64,000 nucleotides of DNA, from positions 62,001 through 126,000 of the IMG/VR virus record IMGVR_UViG_3300034279_001861; one strand, written 5' to 3'. Below, piece by piece: positions 2,355-62,416 of this stretch. The translations under genes and the position numbers were made by a program. The notes beneath the pieces were generated by a model. It saw nothing but the letters and a program-made list of their open reading frames with translations, was not told where the DNA came from and did not search any database. The stretch is from a virus. Each line of letters opens with the position of its first letter. The first letter of the stretch is position 1.

Positions 2355-3462
2355 TTATGTTATCCTCTAACCATCTTTCCAGTACAACATCAGGATTACC
2401 GCCGGACAATAATTCAGAAGCCAAAGCGTAAGCCATTGGAGCACCTTCAGGTTCAATCTCGTCGCTTAGACAAGACTGAAGCGTAAGCTTACTCTCGTCA
2501 ACTGTGACGTCAGACGAAAGTGCTTCAACAACGACGCTCTTGTGCTTGAAAAACAAATGAGATTTATCGTCAAACTCCTGTTTAACAAATCGCACAAAAT
2601 CAAAATCTTCGGTACCGTGAACCAATCTTATGATCGGTTTTCGGAGCTCTTCCGGCAAATTTGTAAAACTCTGCTGGTTCAGCGACAAAAAGGCTTTGAC
2701 GCGTTCAACAATCTTTTTGTAACTGCCAGCGTTTGTAGAAACCTCCAAGTAACCTCGAGTAGGTATTTCCTGGGTACGAATCTTAAAATCAACATCATCG
2801 CAAGTTAGCTTAAAAAAGCACTTCGAAGCTGGCTCGGCCAAACTACGCAAATGCGTGCTGCCTGGGCTAAGCACTGTCAGGTTTGACCCGTGCTTGCGTT
2901 CAATTGTCTGGTGATAGTCACCAGTTATCAGCAGCTTTACATTCGGTGGAATGTCGTCAAAGCAACCTTGCGTTTTACCGACTTCACCCATAAAGTCTTT
3001 CCACACCTGATGGCAGACAAGTACGTACTCCTGTGTAGAATCCTTGGCAATCGTGGCTAAGTTTTCTGCCAGCGTTTTTGCATTGCAGTAATCAAAACCA
3101 ACTATCCGCATTCCATTAGCCAACCTGTTGTTGGAATCCAACGTAAGATGCAACGCATCCAAAGAAGCAACTTCCATCCAGGGCAAATCTCGCTGGAACT
3201 CATGTTGGCCTTGGTTATACAAAACCGAGATACCGTTATCTCGAAGCTTTTTAATACCGGCGTTCAGCTCAGCAACCGGTCTTGCAACATTCAGTTGCTT
3301 ATCCAAGATGTCGCCAGCTAGAATAACAGCATCGGCCTTGTCCCATACCGCGTAATCCACAATGTACCGCCAGCTGTGGTAGCTGTCGCCGTAAATTGGG
3401 CGATGCTTCCAAATAGTGTCCGACAAATGTAAATCACTCGTTACAAAAATTTTTTTGAACAT
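2344..3462 (-). CDS. Mre11/gp47-like DNA exonuclease
   Basis: This calcineurin-type metallophosphoesterase is the nuclease partner of the downstream Rad50-like protein. The metal-binding motifs appear in order: DLHLSD near residue 10, GDILDK, the GNHD-equivalent QGQHEFQ, and TGDYHQ. I chose the ATG at 3462 (MFKKIFVTSDLHL) because the motif lies near the N-terminus in this family and the upstream in-frame extension is antisense to another gene. An AGG-type ribosome-binding site sits about 10 bases upstream. The start overlaps the plus-strand ATG at 3461, so the two genes diverge from one CATG. Confidence 0.93.
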   Translation of the reverse strand: MFKKIFVTSDLHLSDTIWKHRPIYGDSYHSWRYIVDYAVWDKADAVILAGDILDKQLNVARPVAELNAGIKKLRDNGISVLYNQGQHEFQRDLPWMEVASLDALHLTLDSNNRLANGMRIVGFDYCNAKTLAENLATIAKDSTQEYVLVCHQVWKDFMGEVGKTQGCFDDIPPNVKLLITGDYHQTIERKHGSNLTVLSPGSTHLRSLAEPASKCFFKLTCDDVDFKIRTQEIPTRGYLEVSTNAGSYKKIVERVKAFLSLNQQSFTNLPEELRKPIIRLVHGTEDFDFVRFVKQEFDDKSHLFFKHKSVVVEALSSDVTVDESKLTLQSCLSDEIEPEGAPMAYALASELLSGGNPDVVLERWLEDNINAD

Positions 3463-3847
3463 GACTAAACCTATTTTAATGCCAATAAACGAGTTGTGCG
3501 ATAGACTAACAATTGCAGAACTCAAGTTAGAGCGGCTATCCGCCCAAGAGCCAGACAAAACGCTTCTTTCAAAGCAAATTGCCTACTTTTGGGCAGGGGT
3601 AGACCGGAATAACCTGCAACTACTAGAGCTTATCGCACGGCTAAAAACAATCAACGGACAAATGTGGGATCTAGAGTACGACCTTCGCAAAGGACTAGAC
3701 GAAAGTCTAGGCCTAGCTGAAATAGGTAGACGTGCCATAGAAATTAGAAACTTTAACCGAACACGGATTGCAGTCAAAAATCAGATTGCGGAGTTAGTTT
3801 TGCAACCTGAGTTTTTTGATTGCAAAATGAATCATGTCAGTGGCTAA
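3461..3847 (+). CDS. DUF6165-like protein
   Basis: This protein of about 128 residues is one of the few plus-strand genes. It contains a helical pattern typical of DUF6165: LCDRLTIAELKLERLS near the N-terminus, then INGQMWDLEYDLRK, EIGRRAIEIRNFNRTRI and a final NQIAEL helix. The function of the family is unknown; members occur near glycosyltransferase genes and in phages. The ATG at 3461 overlaps the mre11-like start on the other strand. A second ATG at 3479 is possible, and neither has a clear ribosome-binding site. It converges on the 266-residue gene at 3862. Confidence 0.6.
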   Translation: MTKPILMPINELCDRLTIAELKLERLSAQEPDKTLLSKQIAYFWAGVDRNNLQLLELIARLKTINGQMWDLEYDLRKGLDESLGLAEIGRRAIEIRNFNRTRIAVKNQIAELVLQPEFFDCKMNHVSG

Positions 3848-3861
3848 GTGTATTCAAGCGA

Positions 3862-4662
3862 TCAGTCCAAGCTATCAACAACAGGCTTTTTACCCTTAAA
3901 GCTACTTGCGGCTTTAAACCCAGCTTTAAAAGCCTGCCAAGCTGTTTCTATCGACAAATAGACGTATTCCCTTTCATTACGTGCTAGGTCTTCGCGTTCA
4001 ATGTCGTACTTCTCAAACATAGAAGCCTCAAATGACTCCCGTAGCTCAACATCCGACGCAGTCAAAGGATTTAAACACCTCGCGTCAACAGCGTCTTTTA
4101 GCGATTTTAGCCTAGGCAGACAGGCAGGAAACGGTTCCAACGGAATTAAGTTTGTTGCGTGTTCGTTACGATATTTCTTAGGCTTAGAACCAGCAAGATA
4201 AACTTTATAGTGGCCATACATTCCTTCGGTAGTAGCTACACCGTCTACAACCCAGACTCCTTCGACCCATGTAACGGAAACCTTTTCACCGCGATCAAAA
4301 TTACACCGACGAATGTAAGCATTGGCTTCACTAGCTTTTGTACTTACTTGAAGACCAACTAACACCTTTTCTACTAGTTTTGGTCGGCTTAACCCCACGC
4401 AGATATCAAATTCAGACCAATAATCGAGGCTACTTAAAAAACGATAGCCTTTAGGTGGAGAATTTTTGTAATTCGTGCAAGTGTCTCGCACTTCAAAAGC
4501 TTCTTTAGCGGCTGCTGTAGGCTCTAGCAGCAATTCGTGAAGCTGTCTAATTGCAGCCGCAATAAGCGTAGTTACCGGCAGATCTATTGGATCTTCACAG
4601 TCGTGATCTACACTAAAAGCAACGCTAATTGCGGAATTATATTTATCAGTTGTCATGAACAT
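3862..4662 (-). CDS. Hypothetical protein (266 aa)
   Basis: I do not recognise this protein. An AAAGGA ribosome-binding site lies six bases before the ATG at 4662. The central part (YWSEFDICVGL, VSVTWVEGVWVVDG) looks beta-rich. The C-terminus is helical and aromatic (AWQAFKAGFKAA), a pattern seen at the ends of many phage early proteins. No catalytic motif is visible. It sits downstream of the 187- and 311-residue genes in the same direction. Confidence 0.75.
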   Translation of the reverse strand: MFMTTDKYNSAISVAFSVDHDCEDPIDLPVTTLIAAAIRQLHELLLEPTAAAKEAFEVRDTCTNYKNSPPKGYRFLSSLDYWSEFDICVGLSRPKLVEKVLVGLQVSTKASEANAYIRRCNFDRGEKVSVTWVEGVWVVDGVATTEGMYGHYKVYLAGSKPKKYRNEHATNLIPLEPFPACLPRLKSLKDAVDARCLNPLTASDVELRESFEASMFEKYDIEREDLARNEREYVYLSIETAWQAFKAGFKAASSFKGKKPVVDSLD

Positions 4663-4697
4663 TGTTTCCTTTGTTGTTGGTTAACTGTCAAAAGCAA

Positions 4698-5261
4698 CTA
4701 CTCGTTGCTGTCACCTAACAAATCGTCACCGTTAAACAATTCAGTCAAGTCAGTGTCTGAAATAGTTTCAGAAGATTTGCTACCAAAGAGTTTGTTGATA
4801 AAATCAGGCGGCAACTTATCCAGAGGAATAACTCGGACGTCACTTGACGCAGCCTGGTTAGCCTTAGCTTCTCGCTTTTCAGCGTCTAGAAAAGCGTAGT
4901 CTAAAAAACCAGCTGCTTGTTGCAGCAAGCGAAGACGCCCGTAGGCACAGTTATCACTGTCCCAGAGGTCAACTTCTTCGTAATTTCGCACAAGACCGTC
5001 GTACAAGTTTCTAATGTTACGCAACGCCTGAAAGTTCAAAAACATCTCAGGAATAGCTAGATTTTTGAACTTCTCAACGCTCTGCTTAGACAGAAAAGAC
5101 AAATCAATCAAAAATGGGTTGTACGGAGCTTTAAGATCTTTAGCTTTTTGCTCGGCCCACTCGCGGTGGTCTTCAACCCAAGCACCAAGCTGAAGCAATA
5201 ACTCGTATAACTTTTCTGAATTACAATCTTTTCTCGGGTACGGTGGTGATGTAATCTCCAT
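4698..5261 (-). CDS. Hypothetical protein (187 aa)
   Basis: This is a mostly helical, charged protein with no motif I can name. It follows the zinc-binding 311-residue gene by three bases, so the two are likely co-translated. The C-terminus is acidic (DTDLTELFNGDDLLGD). Confidence 0.7.
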   Translation of the reverse strand: MEITSPPYPRKDCNSEKLYELLLQLGAWVEDHREWAEQKAKDLKAPYNPFLIDLSFLSKQSVEKFKNLAIPEMFLNFQALRNIRNLYDGLVRNYEEVDLWDSDNCAYGRLRLLQQAAGFLDYAFLDAEKREAKANQAASSDVRVIPLDKLPPDFINKLFGSKSSETISDTDLTELFNGDDLLGDSNE

Positions 5262-5264
5262 GTC

Positions 5265-6200
5265 TTAGTCTCTCTTTCTTTGAAAACGAATCAGGTTTTG
5301 ATTGGGAAAACACTTGTGAACTGTCTGAAAAACACGCTTTGCATCAAGCGTAAAAAAGGGCTGCCAAGTGTACGACAGCACTTTTTGAATGCTTTTGATC
5401 ACCAGTTTTTCTCGCTGTTTCGCGTCGGCTCCAACAAGGCTGTAGTCAAACCGCCGGTCTAGCTTCATCGCTTCAAGCTTACGCTCTACCGCCGCTGGCA
5501 AAATCAAGTCAGCAGGTACTACATGCAAGCCTACATGGTAAATCGACGGTCTGTACTTGTATTCTATCAACCTTTTGTGTTTGACAACTGGGGTTTTCAA
5601 TTTAGCACGCACGTAAAACGGAACCGCGACCTGAACGCTGAAATGCGATTTAAGCCAAGTGTGCGGTCCTGTTCTACGGTTGAAAAACGGCAAGCCTTCT
5701 TTAAGGTAGCTTGAACGAGCCCAGCTAAAAATACGGCTGTCGGCTAAAACAGACTCGTCGAGCTCCAAGATACCACGAGCAATAGGCTCCAGCCGCAGCC
5801 TTACAAAACAGAACGGACAGGTTTTTGCGTTTTTGCATTGAAAAAGCATAGACGGCTCATAACCGCAACCAGGAGCAGGGCAGTTGCTCTGGGTAAGCAG
5901 CTTTAAAAACTCTCCCTTAAAGTCTGTTGGGTCGATTTCCTTGACAGGAAAGCCAGTTTCCTCGGACGTTCGATAGACCTGGTTTCGAATGTAGCGTAAC
6001 CAAGAAGCCGAGGTGGATAGCTGTTTACGGTAGTTGTACTGGAAATCTGCTAGCTGTTTAAGCAAGCCCTTTTTTCTGTCGCTGTGTAAGACGCAAGCGT
6101 CAAACAAGCGAAACGACAAAGACTTGACTGAGGGTCTGTACTTGATTTTTATGCAAGAACCAAACAAACCATTATTAGCTTTCACGATACCTCCAGGCAT
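5265..6200 (-). CDS. Zinc-binding hypothetical protein (311 aa)
   Basis: The protein has a central cluster of paired cysteines (CPAPGCGYEP, then CKNAKTCPFCFVRLRLEP at roughly residues 110-145), which should bind one zinc. Basic and aromatic segments surround it. A later HVGLHV stretch recalls the HxH of replication initiators, but the pattern is too weak to call. The ATG at 6200 lacks a ribosome-binding site. A GTG at 6185 lies only three bases after a GGAGGT, so the start is uncertain. It reads away from the inverted-repeat region 6226-6522, which may hold its promoter. Function unknown. Confidence 0.7.
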   Translation of the reverse strand: MPGGIVKANNGLFGSCIKIKYRPSVKSLSFRLFDACVLHSDRKKGLLKQLADFQYNYRKQLSTSASWLRYIRNQVYRTSEETGFPVKEIDPTDFKGEFLKLLTQSNCPAPGCGYEPSMLFQCKNAKTCPFCFVRLRLEPIARGILELDESVLADSRIFSWARSSYLKEGLPFFNRRTGPHTWLKSHFSVQVAVPFYVRAKLKTPVVKHKRLIEYKYRPSIYHVGLHVVPADLILPAAVERKLEAMKLDRRFDYSLVGADAKQREKLVIKSIQKVLSYTWQPFFTLDAKRVFQTVHKCFPNQNLIRFQRKRD

Positions 6201-6225
6201 TAGATTAGTTTTGGTTTGCAGAAAG

Positions 6226-6522
6226 TGTACACTTATTTCTATTTCATAGTTACTACATAACTATATCAATAGGTGAACAGCCAAAATTTCGTGTATTATT
6301 ATTAATGATACACCAACACCCACCATTAGCTTGGTCTATTTAAAGACAGTTTTCTGATCTAAAAACAGGTTGTTTAGCGGCAGGTGCCTTTAGTGGTTTC
6401 GGTTTAGGCCTACCAAAGCTACCTATGCACCAAGTCTAATGCGACAGGGAGCCTGGTACGATCACGCGTGCGGAATATTTTGTTACTCTTGAAAAGAGTA
6501 ATGAAATAGAAATAAGTGTACA
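6226..6522. repeat. Non-coding segment bounded by a 22-bp perfect inverted repeat
   Basis: Positions 6226-6247 and 6501-6522 are exact reverse complements (arm starts TGTACACTTATTTC). They enclose 253 bases with no credible gene. Inside are two strong hairpins: one at 6291-6313 (GTGTATTATT arm) and one at 6483-6501 (TTACTCTT/AAGAGTAA). The inner 6340-6435 reads on the minus strand as a Pro/Lys-rich peptide ending QPVFRSENCL but has no start codon, so it may be a decayed gene. The layout could be a small mobile element, a bidirectional regulatory region or an origin. The whole gap 6201-6549 holds nothing else I can see. Confidence 0.75.
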
Positions 6523-23133: not shown

Positions 23134-23353
23134 TGTTATCATCCTCTGAAATTGTCGGAGGAGACCAACTATTTAAGCTAACTCTATCAGAGGGAGGTGC
23201 TCCTTCGCCTGCTATTAACTCTTCCAGAGGTTTGCCGCTAGGCACCTCGGTTTGATTGACTAGCAACTGCGGTGGAGAAAATGAGGACGACGGCCAATTC
23301 AGCGGTCGCAATTGTTTTCTCCGGCTAAAGGCGAAAGAACTTCTGGTCGGCAT
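23126..23353 (-). CDS. Hypothetical protein (75 aa)
   Basis: A strong AGGGGAGG lies before the ATG at 23353. The N-terminus is basic and Ser/Arg-rich; the rest is Pro/Ser-rich and probably disordered. It is co-transcribed with the ATT-start membrane protein upstream, whose stop is just ahead of its ribosome-binding site. Confidence 0.6.
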   Translation of the reverse strand: MPTRSSFAFSRRKQLRPLNWPSSSFSPPQLLVNQTEVPSGKPLEELIAGEGAPPSDRVSLNSWSPPTISEDDNNG

Positions 23354-23373
23354 TGTGGCCTCCCCTCTGTGGG

Positions 23374-23541
23374 TTACTCTTTGTTATCTTGTCCAAAAAC
23401 CATATTATGGACGGCGGCGACGGTCATTAAAAGACCGGCACCTATCAAAATTACGGACTTGGCGGCAAACGATGCCACCCCGATTATTGCTTTGGCTGTG
23501 AGAGACAGCAAGTCAAACACAGTATCACTTAGCTTAAAAAT
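23374..23541 (-). CDS. Small membrane protein with probable ATT start (55 aa)
   Basis: A perfect AGGAGG lies five bases before an ATT at 23541. The frame then encodes FKLSDTVFDLLSLTAKAI and a hydrophobic stretch SVILIGAGLLMTVAAVH, ending DNKE just ahead of the next gene's ribosome-binding site. There is no in-frame ATG near the N-terminus; a GTG seven codons in is the fallback start. ATT starts are rare (infC is the known case). The frame is antisense to the 5' extension of the terminase frame, supporting a later terminase start. Confidence 0.6.
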   Translation of the reverse strand: MFKLSDTVFDLLSLTAKAIIGVASFAAKSVILIGAGLLMTVAAVHNMVFGQDNKE

Positions 23542-26500
23542 GACATCCTCCTACGATTTGATTAAAAATGCCAGAATGACCTCTAGCGAGGTCATGGCAG
23601 AAGAACAAGCACACGATCCTTACGTTATCAGCGAAACTAAGCTGGTAAACGTAGCTCGGCAGATGGGCTACAAGCCGTCTGCATCGACAAGCCTTGTGGA
23701 ACGCAGATTACACTTGGCGGATTTTATGCTGAAATCGTCGGGATACCCGACGCTTCAGCCACTTCTTCCGCTACTGCTTTCCATCAGGGGCAAGCCCTAT
23801 CACTTACATGATCACTTTCCGTTTGCTCCTTTCTTTAGAACGAGAATGGCACGGACGACGCTGCTAAAAACGGGCCGTCAAGTGAGTAAAAGTACTTCAC
23901 TGGCAGCTCAAGGTGTTTTGTTCTCAAACTGCATACCGTACTTCAGTACGCTTTTTCTTACGCCTTTGTTTGAAATGATCCGGCGGTTTTCTCAAAACTA
24001 CGTCGCAGAATTCATTACAACAAGCCCTGTAGGCCGACTGTTCACTGACGAAACTACCGTGAACAACGTACTACAACGTTCGTTTAAGAATAGATCTAAG
24101 ATGATCTTTTCTTTTGCCTACCTGGACGCCGAGAGAACTCGAGGTATCTCTGCCGACAAAAACTGCCTCGTCGGAAATACCATGTTGGAGCTTTCTGACG
24201 GTAACTTTGTCGCCATAAAAAATGCTAAACCAGGCATGGCTGTACTTTCTACGGATAAGAATGGTACAATCAGTACCGATGTAATAACTGAGGTGCTGTA
24301 TCACGGCGTGCAGCCTGTTTTTGAGGTTAAGTTTTCCGGCGGTGAAGTTGTACGGTGTACTGCAGATGAGCGATTTAGAACAGCCAGCACAAAACAGTGG
24401 AAATATTTGGCAGAGCTTGTACCAGAACTGCTCGAATTCCAAAACGGACAAGCGAAAGCGGAACCAGGACAAACCTTTAAGCTACCCGCAGAAACAAATG
24501 CTACTAGGTTGCTTACTAGGCGATTCCGGAATAGCTCAAGCTTCAAAAACCTCAAATTACCGAATATATTTCAGACACGGACTGAAACAAAAACAGTACT
24601 GTCAGGACAAAGCCGACACTTTGGCCGAGTTTGTTTCAACCCAACCGAAAGAAGTGCTCAACCGAGGCTACGGAAAAAAGTCGGTAATATTTGCTACTGT
24701 TTCAAGTCCTGCGTTTCTGGAAATAGCTCGAACTGTCACCGTCGAAGGCAAAAAAACGGTAACTACAACTTGGGCAAATCAACTGGATTGGGCGGCAATA
24801 GCTTATTGGTACATGGACGACGGAAGCTGCGGTGCTCGAAGAAGCAATTGTGTTTTTCATACACAAGGGTTTTCAAAAGCCGAGTGCGAAATACTTTCAA
24901 GCCGATTAAAAGAGCTGGGCATCTACAACAAGGTGACGCCTGTAAAAAACAAAAATCAAGCCAGGCCGTATTACGTGCTTTGTCTAACTGCCGAGAGTTC
25001 TCGAAAATTAGCGCTAAATATTGCACCTTGGGTGCATCCGTCTATGCGTTACAAAATCCCAAGACAAAAAGAAACAGTAATCTGTTCAATGTGTGGATCG
25101 ATTTTTTCGGGTCGAAAAGACCAGCTGGAGGCAAAAGAAGCTATTTGCAAAAAAGAAAATTGCAAAAAACTTCGACACAGAAAGTTGAATTTGGAATATC
25201 GCGAAAGAAAGAGAGCTGCGAAAGTTCGGTTATAACTTGTGTAACCTATGTCGGCTTACGTCCAACTTGGGATATAAACACAGCGAAGTATCATTCATTT
25301 TTTGCTAACGGTGTAAATTGCCATAACTGTATAGACGAGATCCAGGACATGGATATCTCGTTTCTACCTGTTATTCACGAGACTATTTCTGCCTCACGCT
25401 CTTGGGGAATCAAGCAATATGCTGGAACTCCCAAGACACTTGACAACACAATCGAGCGGCTTTGGATAGATAGTTCCATGGCCGAGTGGATTATCAAATG
25501 CCCTCACGGAGGCTGCGGTCACTGGAATATTCCTTCACTAGATCACGATCTTCTCAAAATGATCGGACCGGTTCACGACGGCATTAGCGACACGTGTCCA
25601 GGTGTTATTTGTGCTAAGTGTGCAAAACCAATCAATCCAAGACCACCCTACCAGGGCGGAACTGGACGGTGGTTGCACCGGCATCCCGATAAGCGTTGGA
25701 GCTTTGCTGGCTACCATGTGCCTCAGCTTATCATGCCTATGCACTACGCTAGCCGCGAGAAGTGGCAAACGCTAGTCGATAAACGAGATGGCAAAGGTAA
25801 CACACCTATCCACGTTTTTTACAACGAAGTATGCGGCGAGTCGTGGGACTCAGGTAGCAAGCTTGTAACCATTACAGATCTCAAACGTGCTGCGTGCCTG
25901 CCGTGGAAAAATACCATGGAGACAGCTCGAAATAACATCGACGGCTATTTGTACCGCTTTGTGGCCGTTGACTGGGGTGGAGGTGGCGTTAGCAACGGTA
26001 AAAGCGATCTTGCGTTGCAGTCTTACACTTCGATTGCGGTATGCGGTCTTTGTCCTGATGGTCGCGTGGACGTTATTTACGGGTACCGAAGTATGACACC
26101 GCACGAGCACGAACGCGAAGCCGGTTTGATTTTGAACATCATGGGAGCTTTCAAGTGTTCTCACGTTGTTCACGATTACACAGGAGCCGGTACAGTGCGA
26201 GAAACGCTGCTAGTGCAGGCTAGGCTTCCTCGAGAAAGGATTCTTCCTGTGGCCTACACTGGGCCTGCCAAGGGTGGTTTGATAGGTTACAAACCTGCAA
26301 ACCCGAAACACCCTCGAGATCACTATGTAATGGACAGAAATCGAGCTTTGAATTACTGCTGTCAATTCATCAAAGGTGGGGTTATTAGATTCTTCGAATA
26401 CGACTACAAAGGATCAGATGATGTCGGTCTTTTGCACGACTTTTTGAATTTAATCGAAGACAAAGCCGAGTCTGGATCCGGCAGGGACACTTACAAGATT

Positions 26501-26671
26501 TTGCGAGATCCTGCCGGACCTGATGACTTTGCACAAGCTGTTACCATGGGCTCAATGATGCTGTTCCAAATGGCAGGTAGGTTTCCAGACCTATCAGCCT
26601 ACAAGGACATAGAGATAAGCGACGATGTGCTACTCTCTACCCAGGGTATTAAGGACATGGATTGGTACTAG
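23540..26671 (+). CDS. Terminase large subunit (TerL) interrupted by an intein
   Basis: This is the DNA-packaging motor. The Walker A-like motif is GRQVSKSTS and Walker B is CIDEIQDM, immediately after the intein. The RNase H-like nuclease follows with VDWGGGG, HDYTGAG and PDDFAQAV supplying acidic residues. The frame is open from 23312, but the first 76 codons lie antisense to a membrane-protein gene, so I prefer the ATG at 23540 (MTSSYDLIKN); 23594 is another option. Minus the 388-residue intein, the mature protein would be about 655 aa. It is the only long plus-strand gene. Confidence 0.92.
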   Translation: MTSSYDLIKNARMTSSEVMAEEQAHDPYVISETKLVNVARQMGYKPSASTSLVERRLHLADFMLKSSGYPTLQPLLPLLLSIRGKPYHLHDHFPFAPFFRTRMARTTLLKTGRQVSKSTSLAAQGVLFSNCIPYFSTLFLTPLFEMIRRFSQNYVAEFITTSPVGRLFTDETTVNNVLQRSFKNRSKMIFSFAYLDAERTRGISADKNCLVGNTMLELSDGNFVAIKNAKPGMAVLSTDKNGTISTDVITEVLYHGVQPVFEVKFSGGEVVRCTADERFRTASTKQWKYLAELVPELLEFQNGQAKAEPGQTFKLPAETNATRLLTRRFRNSSSFKNLKLPNIFQTRTETKTVLSGQSRHFGRVCFNPTERSAQPRLRKKVGNICYCFKSCVSGNSSNCHRRRQKNGNYNLGKSTGLGGNSLLVHGRRKLRCSKKQLCFSYTRVFKSRVRNTFKPIKRAGHLQQGDACKKQKSSQAVLRALSNCREFSKISAKYCTLGASVYALQNPKTKRNSNLFNVWIDFFGSKRPAGGKRSYLQKRKLQKTSTQKVEFGISRKKESCESSVITCVTYVGLRPTWDINTAKYHSFFANGVNCHNCIDEIQDMDISFLPVIHETISASRSWGIKQYAGTPKTLDNTIERLWIDSSMAEWIIKCPHGGCGHWNIPSLDHDLLKMIGPVHDGISDTCPGVICAKCAKPINPRPPYQGGTGRWLHRHPDKRWSFAGYHVPQLIMPMHYASREKWQTLVDKRDGKGNTPIHVFYNEVCGESWDSGSKLVTITDLKRAACLPWKNTMETARNNIDGYLYRFVAVDWGGGGVSNGKSDLALQSYTSIAVCGLCPDGRVDVIYGYRSMTPHEHEREAGLILNIMGAFKCSHVVHDYTGAGTVRETLLVQARLPRERILPVAYTGPAKGGLIGYKPANPKHPRDHYVMDRNRALNYCCQFIKGGVIRFFEYDYKGSDDVGLLHDFLNLIEDKAESGSGRDTYKILRDPAGPDDFAQAVTMGSMMLFQMAGRFPDLSAYKDIEISDDVLLSTQGIKDMDWY
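24164..25327 (+). other. Intein inserted at the TerL Walker B site
   Basis: The protein insert runs from Cys1 (CLVGNTMLEL, block A) at 24164 to HN (FFANGVNCHN, block G) ending at 25327, with Cys as the +1 extein residue. Block B is RCTADERFRT, where the usual TxxH His appears as Glu, which may slow splicing. Block F is TWDINTAKYHSFFANG. The splice junction falls directly before the Walker B Asp-Glu, a conserved site often hit by inteins. The central part of the reading frame is not endonuclease-like; the endonuclease is in another frame. Confidence 0.85.
24366..25235 (+). CDS. LAGLIDADG homing endonuclease, nested out of frame in the intein
   Basis: In the +1 frame relative to TerL, a reading frame encodes two LAGLIDADG motifs: MLLGCLLGDSGIAQ and AIAYWYMDDGSCG. 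These are followed by HTQGFSKAECEILSSRLKEL, typical of the LAGLIDADG_2 family, and a CxxC...C zinc-like tail (ICSMCGSIFSGRKDQ). It ends with TAA at 25235, before the C-terminal intein blocks. The start is unclear: ATG at 24366 or at 24498 (next to the first motif). The TerL frame stays open across the whole overlap. Confidence 0.8.
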   Translation: MSDLEQPAQNSGNIWQSLYQNCSNSKTDKRKRNQDKPLSYPQKQMLLGCLLGDSGIAQASKTSNYRIYFRHGLKQKQYCQDKADTLAEFVSTQPKEVLNRGYGKKSVIFATVSSPAFLEIARTVTVEGKKTVTTTWANQLDWAAIAYWYMDDGSCGARRSNCVFHTQGFSKAECEILSSRLKELGIYNKVTPVKNKNQARPYYVLCLTAESSRKLALNIAPWVHPSMRYKIPRQKETVICSMCGSIFSGRKDQLEAKEAICKKENCKKLRHRKLNLEYRERKRAAKVRL

Positions 26672-49598: not shown

Positions 49599-49655
49599 AC
49601 TCAATTCCTTTGAAAAAGGTTTAACGAACAAAGCAACATCAAAGATGTCACACAA

Positions 49656-49729
49656 TGGGACTGCCCGGACTTGAACCGAGAACCGAGAGATTATGAGTCT
49701 CCTGCTCTAACCTATTGAGCTACAGTCCC
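49656..49729 (-). tRNA. tRNA with anticodon CAU (Met or lysidine-Ile)
   Basis: The 74-nt minus-strand sequence folds as a full cloverleaf: acceptor GGGACTG/CAGTCCC, D-stem GCTC/GAGC, anticodon stem GGAGA/TCTCT with loop CTCATAA (anticodon at 49693-49695), variable loop of five, T-stem CTCGG/CCGGG with loop TTCAAGT, and discriminator A. CCA is not encoded. CAU may be elongator Met or, if modified to lysidine, Ile for AUA codons. It is the only clear tRNA in the window. Confidence 0.95.
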
Positions 49730-49737
49730 AATCGAAA

Positions 49738-59865: not shown

Positions 59866-60272
59866 GCTACGACCTGTACTGTAAATGTGTCTATAAGTGC
59901 GTTATTTGCATTGTTACGTACTTCTACTGTTTGCGGACTTACCTTAGCCGTCAAGGTGCTGTAACAAGTAAACTTAACCCACTGACCAGCTGTTACTGCG
60001 AACGTGCTGCCAGGGCTGTCGGCTACCTGTATCCATGGCGGCGTTGTTGGTTGCCCGTTTGGGTTTAAAGTTGCTTCAGAAGCTGCTACTTGATAGAAAA
60101 GTTGAATATTGGACGGGCTTGTCAAGTTTACAACTTTAAGTGTTACACCGTATGTAAGTAATTTACTGGTGATAGTGCCGCTTGTTGTGCCTAAACTCCA
60201 CTGTATAGCTTCCCAGTCTGGGTTAACAACGCTTGGTGGTTGTACGTTAAACAGACCAGCAAATGGTAACAT
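59862..60272 (-). CDS. Probable virion protein, beta-sandwich-like (136 aa)
   Basis: I start at ATG 60272 ([18 protein letters not shown]), which overlaps the collagen gene's TAA by one base. The sequence is Thr/Val/Ser-rich with alternating strands (GVTLKVVNLTSPSNIQLFYQ, QWVKFTCYSTLTAKV), typical of fibre-tip or decoration domains. It is probably attached to the fibre made by the upstream gene. Confidence 0.65.
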   Translation of the reverse strand: MLPFAGLFNVQPPSVVNPDWEAIQWSLGTTSGTITSKLLTYGVTLKVVNLTSPSNIQLFYQVAASEATLNPNGQPTTPPWIQVADSPGSTFAVTAGQWVKFTCYSTLTAKVSPQTVEVRNNANNALIDTFTVQVVA

Positions 60273-62416
60273 TATATTGTTGTATCTCCAGCTAGTACAA
60301 AGTTGTTTGCACTTCTTTGGATCAGAGACACGACTGCCCATCTACCTGCTGTTTTAGTGTGACTTTGTCTGTTGTTTATGGTTGTACCCGACGCATTAAA
60401 AGTAACTTGACCTGTACCTGACTGTATCACAGTAACCGTAAAACCAACTGGTAAGCCTGTAGGTACCGTTATCGTTATAGCGTTACTGCATTCCAAGACT
60501 ACACCGTTATCACCGGCTCCAAGTGTTCGCGATGCGTTAGCCTCGGTTACAATTATACCTGTACCTGTAACATACTTATTGGAAGTGATACCACCGGTGC
60601 TAAGCATATTAGTGCTAGCGTTGTAACTAAGAGCTGGCGACGTTGTATCGATGTTAGGCGTTTGATTACTCCCGCCCGCCGCCACAAATACAACGTAAAA
60701 CAAAGAATCTGCGTCTGTGGCTGTTGCGTTTATAGCTGTGCTAGGACCCGTCGCACCGGTAGAGCCAGTTACTCCTGTGGCTCCTGTAGTCCCGGCAGCT
60801 CCGTTAGCACCTGTTGGTCCGGTAGCACCTACCGTCCCACTTATGCCTGTGGCACCTTGCGAACCTGTAGCCTGTAACGATAAGACAACTTGGTCTGACG
60901 CGGTGTAAGTTCCGTTTGTAACAATACTCTCTACACTAAAATCAAAATAGGTTGCTTCTTCAGTTACAGCGGTAATTCGATACAAGCCAAAGTTAGTCAC
61001 GTTGTTTATCAACCACGTCTTTATAATGTCGCTAGCTTTAAACGTGTCTAACCATGCCGTCATATCTATGTCATTGTAATTTGACTTTTCAACGTAAATA
61101 TGCTCGACAGCATCCAATACTGCGCTATCAAAATAAACTTGACCGTGGGAAGTTAACGCCATTATCTTGGCAGATTCTATCTCAGTGTCTGCGTAGAAAT
61201 AGCTGTCGTCACCTGTGTGTTTTAAAGGAAATACAGGGGCCTCTGGTGAAAGGTTGCTGTTAAACTCCCAGCTCATCAGAAAATCATTTTCGTCGGGTGT
61301 AGGCGGGCCGGACGGGCCGGGTGGTCCTGTTGGCCCTGTTGGGCCTGTTGGTCCCGAAGGCCCGGTTGAACCTTCGCAACAAGGCCCTTGTGGCCCAACG
61401 GCACCTTGCGGACCTGCAGGACCTATAGGTCCTTGTGGGCCTACGTCACCCTGAGGTCCTTGATAGCCTTGAGGTCCCCGATAGCCTTGAGGTCCCCGAT
61501 AGCCTTGAGGTCCGCGGTATCCCTGCGGCCCGCGATAACCGTAAGGTCCACGGTATCCCTGCGGACCGCGGTACCCGGTTGCTCCCCGACCACCTAGCGG
61601 TCCTTGAGGCCCTGTTGGGCCTTGGTTACCGTCTGGGCCTGGATTGCCGTCTGGGCCTGGATTACCGTCTGGGCCTGGGTTGCCATCTGGGCCTGGATTA
61701 CCGTCTGGACCGCTAGGTCCGGCTGGGCCTTGTGGTCCTTCTGGCCCGCTTGGTCCCGCGGGTCCGGTGGGTCCGGCTGGGCCTTGTGGTCCGTTTGGTC
61801 CTACTGGTCCTTGTGGTCCTTCTGGCCCAACGGGTCCTTCCGGTCCGTCAGGCCCTTGCGGTCCGGCTGGGCCTTGTGGTCCTTCCGGACCTTCTGGACC
61901 TTCGGGTCCTTGCGGCCCCTGTGGGCCTTCTGGTCCTGTTGGACCCTGTGGACCTTGTGGGCCTAACTGCGGGCTGGGTATTCCAAGATTTAAATCAATA
62001 GAGAACGTACAATCGCCAGATTTTGTTACGTCAAGCGAGGCAAACGGAGCTCCGCCGGGGCCTACGGTACTTACAGTGGCACTTCCGCTAATTTCCGGGC
62101 AAGGAAAAGCAATATCCAGCGTAAAGGTGTAATCGCAGCATGCACCTTTAGTTATTATGAGACTAGCGTTTTCTCCACCAATTGGCACTACGGTGGTATC
62201 AACATCGCCCGCACCTATTACAGGACAAATAGGATCGGGATCTAGCATCGGAACCGGCAGCGACGGGCAATCGAAAATATCAGTCGGTGCCTGCGGTACC
62301 TGTGGATTAAGCAGCCAATTACCGCCAGGTATAGGAAAAATACAAGGCACATCGCATTTGATAACATCAAATACAGGTGACTGAGGTCCTTGTGGACACG
62401 GAGTCGTCGGTGCCAT
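60272..62416 (-). CDS. Collagen-like phage fibre protein (714 aa)
   Basis: Residues about 150-373 are uninterrupted Gly-X-Y triplets ([13 protein letters not shown] type), with local sub-repeats GYRGPQ and GPDGNP. A second short Gly-X-Y block is at about 517-559. The N-terminal domain is Cys/Pro-rich ([14 protein letters not shown]). The C-terminal part (about residues 580-714) is a beta-rich domain with [19 protein letters not shown], found at the ends of phage tail fibres. It should form a trimeric stalk with a receptor-binding or tip domain. AAGGAAA precedes the ATG. Confidence 0.85.

Follow-up and report, generated by a model that had tools for sequence, protein, structure and literature searches.

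The window analysed here is a stretch of 64,000 nucleotides (bases 62001-126000 of the 175,160-base virus record IMGVR_UViG_3300034279_001861), and coordinates without a locus name refer to it. On its + strand, a frame that is stop-free from 23312 to 26671 forms one uninterrupted ORF for a GpA-like large terminase (TerL) with an insert; the gene probably starts at ATG 23540. Aligned with empty-site TerL homologues, the insert is exactly 24164-25327 (388 codons). These homologues (L010-L012; 89% identical) read ...ISADKN/CIDEIQDM... or a near variant without a break (here and below, a slash within a sequence marks the junction). Because they read straight through, both limits of the insert are fixed, and they are the same as in the initial annotation. 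Over the C-extein, the window is 74-89% identical to close intein-less viral terminases. A separate contig (L002) matches the window with 3 mismatches and 0 gaps over 7780 bases, all 3 mismatches being outside the intein. The locus is made up of the following parts.

23540-24163, + strand: N-extein of TerL (GpA-like), ending in ...RGISADKN (open frame; alignment with intein-less TerL homologues)
24164-24460, + strand: N-terminal splicing part of the intein, TerL frame, with Cys1 and block B region CTADER (empty-site boundary; AlphaFold; Foldseek)
24461-25219, + strand: shadow linker of 253 residues, TerL frame, stop-free, predicted disordered (pLDDT ~38; 0 stops versus 15 expected)
24468-25235, + strand: core of an I-SceI-type LAGLIDADG endonuclease, +1 frame, with its own TAA (Pfam PF03161; AlphaFold; Foldseek)
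24501-24530, + strand: LAGLIDADG motif 1, LLGCLLGDSG, catalytic Asp codon at 24522 (aligned with I-SceI LGDAYI)
24804-24827, + strand: LAGLIDADG motif 2, YWYMDDGS (aligned with I-SceI AYWFMDDG)
25083-25163, + strand: zinc-ribbon-like motif at the endonuclease C-terminus, C-x2-C ... C-x4-C (cysteines conserved among nested endonucleases)
25220-25327, + strand: C-terminal splicing part of the intein, TerL frame, blocks F/G, ending in FFANGVNCHN (AlphaFold; empty-site boundary)
25328-26671, + strand: C-extein of TerL from Cys+1 (CIDEIQDM, Walker B region; homologues 74-100% identical over the C-extein half)

Two other features of the window, both on the - strand, are a lone tRNA-Met (CAT) gene (49655-49730), its sole tRNA, and a 714-aa ORF (60272-62416) that probably encodes a protein of the tail-fibre type and has long GPQ/GPE repeats resembling collagen.

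Two frames and their predicted folds

In the TerL frame, the insert has the splice-junction residues of a class 1 intein (C1 ... HN/C). It lies precisely between host codons and intein-less alleles exist, as is also the case for the intein of phage FoX3 described below. In the inteins of relatives, residue 1 is C, S or T, residue +1 is C or S and the terminal Asn is invariant; the penultimate His is absent from some (S, K or Y is found there). The AlphaFold model of the TerL frame has a pLDDT of ~95 for intein residues 1-99 (HINT-type strands) and 353-388, and of ~38 for residues 100-352. A HINT fold split into N and C parts is found by AlphaFold, Foldseek and profile comparison: Foldseek with this model gives mini-intein matches (Ssp DnaB, Mtu RecA and Npu DnaE inteins), and a family profile of the TerL frame matches mini-inteins at 2e-30 (including a DnaX mini-intein). 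The window TerL frame by itself has a weak match to Pfam Intein_splicing (8e-4).

The block B motif TxxH is highly conserved in inteins yet not universal, and it is not strictly defining. The window intein is without the usual His and has TADE instead (24350-24380). TxxE is also found in other inteins (TANE in L030 and L031, TSGE in L108), and many other nested inteins, i.e. those with an out-of-frame endonuclease, have a canonical block B. The predicted fold suggests that this mini-intein would splice TerL in cis.

The initial annotation described the TerL frame as open across the whole intein with a central part unlike an endonuclease, and this is what we observed: the single ORF runs through, and its linker part is not endonuclease-like and is predicted to be disordered. 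It also rightly placed a LAGLIDADG endonuclease with its own stop in the +1 frame, where the canonical bifunctional mobile intein would have it in frame. The +1 frame is open from 24291 to its TAA at 25233-25235 and matches Pfam LAGLIDADG_2 (PF03161) with E=6.5e-30, and a family profile of the endonuclease finds two intron endonucleases, one of them I-SceI, at 1e-30 or better. Its AlphaFold model has high confidence throughout (mean pLDDT 94.9), and Foldseek matches this model with I-WcaI and I-SceI at E ~5e-15, far ahead of intein endonucleases such as PI-SceI. Both LAGLIDADG motifs align with I-SceI by phmmer, so the two motifs with catalytic Asp and the fold of LAGLIDADG_2/I-SceI-like enzymes are all present. 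The D of motif 1 and the DDG of motif 2 are invariant across the nested family, and four cysteines (C206, C209, C227 and C232) are invariant or nearly so. These belong to the C-terminal zinc-ribbon motif, a hallmark of the nested +1 endonucleases that is absent from I-SceI. As modelled, the protein that the window encodes in this frame is a well-folded LAGLIDADG endonuclease of the I-SceI type, with a zinc ribbon at its C-terminus.

The predictions for the two frames complement each other (pLDDT ~95 in the endonuclease frame where the TerL frame has ~38), and the disordered linker (24461-25219) matches the endonuclease core (24468-25232) in position. Even the conserved VHGRR of the linker is the YMDDG motif of the endonuclease read out of frame.

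Stop avoidance and recurrence among viral loci

A T at the end of an endonuclease codon creates a stop in the TerL frame when the codon after it begins with AA, AG or GA. We permuted synonymous codons in 20,000 shuffles, with the endonuclease protein and its codon usage fixed. The TerL frame of the window has 0 stops versus 15.0 expected, and none of the 20,000 shuffles was as low; the third frame has 17 stops (16.5 expected in the same test). Among codons able to end in T before AA, AG or GA, 0 of 51 do so, versus 62 of 141 elsewhere (Fisher P=7e-11). The host frame, i.e. that of the interrupted gene, has 0 stops in 20 out of 21 distinct +1 loci and one stop in L032 (7-24 expected). Statistically, selection keeps the TerL frame open over the out-of-frame endonuclease, in the window and in nearly every relative, which bears out the suggestion of the initial annotation that two stop-free frames are selected for. 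The 33 un-nested relatives show no general stop depletion in the same shuffle test (two or three are partly depleted, though still with many stops).

Substitutions between related nested pairs are found mostly at endonuclease codon position 3, then 1, then 2, like in un-nested controls, and the host-frame identity of these pairs (0.17-0.44) is at the level of a meaningless offset frame in the controls. This combination indicates selection on the endonuclease for its protein sequence, and on the host frame for nothing but openness. A host-frame linker that is a conserved protein is ruled out by these pair comparisons and by its low pLDDT.

We scanned viral contigs with endonuclease profiles and analysed the frames of the best 80 matches of each scan. 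Beside the window, at least 20 further distinct loci have an endonuclease in +1 relative to a long host frame (L003, L029, L030, L031, L032 (=L033), L035, L106 (=L107), L108, L109 (=L110), L111, L112, L113, L114, L116, L126, L136, L148, L153, L156 and L163). At least three loci have it in the opposite frame (L128, L155 and Xanthomonas phage FoX3, L174), all within ResIII-type helicases. In the stop test for these, L128 is significant on its own (0 versus 7.1 expected), FoX3 is marginal (P=0.027) and L155 is not significant. In the endonucleases of L128 and L155, the C-terminal motif is replaced by CxCGCG motifs at the N-terminus that resemble a zinc ribbon.

Based on Pfam, hosts of the nested inteins include terminases (GpA, Terminase_6) and DEAD/Ski2-like, UvrD-like and ResIII-type helicases; the L108 host looks RecQ-like by inspection. 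The insertion point is nearly always DE/C or DE/S in Walker B; in the window, in L148 and in the group of L029, L032, L112 and L113 it precedes Walker B by a few residues. Among the close relatives no in-frame endonuclease was found, the in-frame copies being more distant endonuclease relatives. A search of prokaryote genome contigs with a narrow pattern (alignment A1) gave ten pattern matches and no confirmed relative.

Two arrangements of other kinds were also noted. A homologous TerL in L022 (IMGVR_UViG_3300042539_002213, 2949-6341) has a different LAGLIDADG intein, in frame and at Walker A (junctions GRQVSK/TLKK...HN/STSLAAQ), with the Walker B site empty. In Staphylococcus phage MarsHill (L175, 2977-3717), a related LAGLIDADG_2 gene lies between two annotated pieces of the prohead protease gene; it is intron-like and not nested, because its other frames have many stops.

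The initial annotation considered that compensating indels could be sequencing errors hiding an ordinary in-frame endonuclease. This is excluded by the presence of the layout in at least 24 distinct loci and in a cultured phage, and by the endonuclease's own stop codon; the gap-free L002 contig, together with these loci, rules out sequencing or assembly error in general. Some nested copies may be decaying. In L031, a one-base shift at ~4668-4849 moves the host and endonuclease frames together, after which a second zinc ribbon falls in the former host frame; this is either an assembly error or a broken copy. In L032, a single host-frame stop (2339-2341) interrupts an otherwise open nested intein, with a matching stop in the near-identical L033, and reflects either decay or readthrough.

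The cultured phage is FoX3. Its helicase gp40 (MT161383, 26902-29268) holds a 942-base intein (L174:2723-3664), which contains an unannotated out-of-frame LAGLIDADG gene. Five phages 97-99.5% identical to FoX3 (FoX1, FoX2, FoX5, Murka and M29) have an uninterrupted helicase gene with the exact empty site, which reads ...GATGAG/TGTCACCAC... in FoX5 or Murka. The joined FoX3 exteins differ from these siblings at 7-44 out of 1425 positions: the third base of the Cys+1 codon is changed in all comparisons, and the last base before the junction is also changed in Murka, FoX5 and M29. Such near-identical siblings with an exact empty site point to a recent acquisition of the intein by FoX3, which would imply recent homing in this lineage. 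The portion of the Murka paper that was searched has no mention of the hidden FoX3 endonuclease. FoX3 and its intein-free siblings make a ready homing assay.

Translation, mobility and origin

The computation establishes both frames, the exact insertion, the stop avoidance, the endonuclease-type codon evolution, the two predicted folds, the recurrence and the empty sites. Based on these, it is highly probable that a mobile intein occupies the Walker B coding sequence of TerL, with a separate homing endonuclease gene overprinted out of frame on its linker. The simplest reading of its expression is that the mini-intein, disordered linker included, splices in cis and that the endonuclease is translated separately. 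Ribosomes in the TerL frame would cross the endonuclease DNA and make a precursor in which a mini-intein is broken by a meaningless, probably unstructured linker of ~250 residues; the two HINT halves would fold together and splice, giving intact TerL. Ribosomes initiating within the message in the +1 frame would make a free I-SceI-type endonuclease with its C-terminal zinc ribbon. This enzyme would presumably cut intein-less alleles near the insertion site, and repair would copy the whole intein-endonuclease unit into the cut allele, i.e. homing.

For the relatives, separate manufacture of the endonuclease is well supported by the placement of putative starts: the endonuclease frame opens at most 16 codons before the core in 13 out of 21 loci, and an ATG or GTG then follows in 12 of these 13. 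AGGAG is found ~8 bases ahead of the ATG in L030 and L031, and GGAGG upstream in L148 and L153. In the endonuclease region of the window, no convincing start codon or Shine-Dalgarno sequence was found. The candidates are ATG 24366 (34 codons upstream of the core, with no clear Shine-Dalgarno sequence), TTG 24417 and ATG 24498, which lies within the first LAGLIDADG helix (residues 6-15) of the AlphaFold model and would truncate it. Separate initiation may apply to the window endonuclease too.

A programmed +1 ribosomal frameshift from the TerL frame would instead give a fusion of N-extein, intein N part and endonuclease, with no internal initiation. The window would suit it, as 59 open codons precede the core in its +1 frame without a good start nearby, and similar long openings are found in L106, L108 and L031. 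We nevertheless think it improbable: most relatives have an endonuclease-frame stop within ~16 codons upstream and then a start codon, the second class (L128, L155 and FoX3) uses the other frame, and an unsystematic look noticed no conserved slippery site.

Homing endonucleases are known to decay after fixation, and L031 and L032/L033 do appear damaged, so the element could be an ordinary mini-intein with a dying endonuclease put out of frame by chance indels. Such a relic would hardly stay free of stops for 255 codons (P=7e-11) or keep one relative frame across 21 distinct loci, nor would it be expected to show a purifying pattern in the endonuclease frame with invariant catalytic residues, and an endonuclease with its own stop codon and zinc ribbon; we consider it very unlikely. 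Equally doubtful is that the linker stays in the protein, the host tolerating an unspliced insert, which is what has been proposed for ShiLan in methylases: splicing domains are absent from that published element (PMC11855218) and block B of the window is non-canonical, but the predicted HINT fold is complete with its splice-junction residues, and a 388-residue insert in the Walker B region of an essential ATPase would be expected to be lethal. A group I intron with its endonuclease, removed from RNA and with a coincidental intein-like frame, is barely credible, even though the endonuclease is of the I-SceI intron type and its distant relatives L004-L007 stand alone, perhaps within introns, since the TerL frame has HINT halves with Cys1, His-Asn and Cys+1, is kept open (needless for an RNA intron), and neither the window nor nine loci including L002 have an Rfam match to group I or II introns at the gathering score, which argues against both intron groups.

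In a quick tree built from 127 endonucleases, six changes are required to explain the nested +1 state, at least three of them forced by starred branches (such counts do not tell gain from loss). The opposite-frame class occupies a single branch (support 79); in-frame inteins and free-standing genes are scattered in between. These changes do not allow a common origin of nesting to be demonstrated, and nesting likely arose repeatedly. One endonuclease clade (the window, L106, L108, L030 and L031) has both terminase and RecQ-like hosts, and the inteins of the window, L108, L030 and L031 have in common a Glu for the block B His, a hint that an intein and its endonuclease travel together. Intein and endonuclease distances are correlated over 24 loci (Mantel r=0.67, P=0.0002), and weakly so between different host genes (r=0.20). 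Co-travel across host genes is thus hinted at, not proven.

On balance we lean slightly towards a broader view, in which overprinted mobile inteins are a distinct and repeatedly evolved architecture: an intron-type endonuclease gene would have invaded a Walker-B mini-intein at its linker, in a frame other than that of the intein, with both frames then held open and the composite unit moving among unrelated ATPase genes. If so, holding both frames open by selection would uncouple endonuclease output from the translation and splicing of the host gene.

Comparison with known systems

In a full-text search of open-access papers and a minority of preprints, no description of a true intein with an out-of-frame endonuclease was found, and as a design for mobile inteins the layout seems to have been overlooked. 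It explains why such endonucleases, e.g. that of FoX3, are missed by gene callers. It is also one of the cleaner natural long two-frame overlaps (~250-500 codons) in which one frame is selected only against stops.

Textbook mobile inteins are bifunctional single polypeptides, with the endonuclease usually in frame. The window intein is like those of the PI-SceI type in its HINT splicing domain, in the topological place of the endonuclease and in its insertion in conserved ATPase motifs. Unlike in those, the endonuclease is outside the intein polypeptide, as a separate overlapping gene with a different frame, its own stop and its own zinc ribbon. It is closest to I-SceI and I-WcaI (LAGLIDADG_2) and not to the in-frame intein type, sharing with these two the fold, the two motifs and the catalytic Asp residues; however, they are carried by group I introns, whereas the window enzyme is carried by an intein and has extra C-terminal zinc ribbon(s). 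The layout thereby connects intron-type I-SceI enzymes with intein mobility.

Split inteins are also known, with free-standing endonuclease genes that sit between the halves of fractured phage genes. The window is similar in that the intein halves are parted by an endonuclease gene that would be separately translated; the host gene, however, is not in two genes but one continuous frame (23312-26671), and splicing would be in cis.

The nearest published case, and the one precedent for hidden endonucleases that the literature search gave, is the ShiLan domain together with the Pacc40 insertion, where mycobacteriophage methylases hold HNH endonucleases out of frame (Arsenault, Gosselin, Gogarten 2025, PMC11855218). 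ShiLan is without splicing domains, its retention in the protein has been proposed, and leaderless internal initiation was suggested (PMC11855218). Both have a homing-type endonuclease out of frame in an insertion without host-frame stops, a sporadic distribution and a proposed separate translation, but the window endonuclease is a LAGLIDADG enzyme, not HNH, and lies inside a complete mini-intein.
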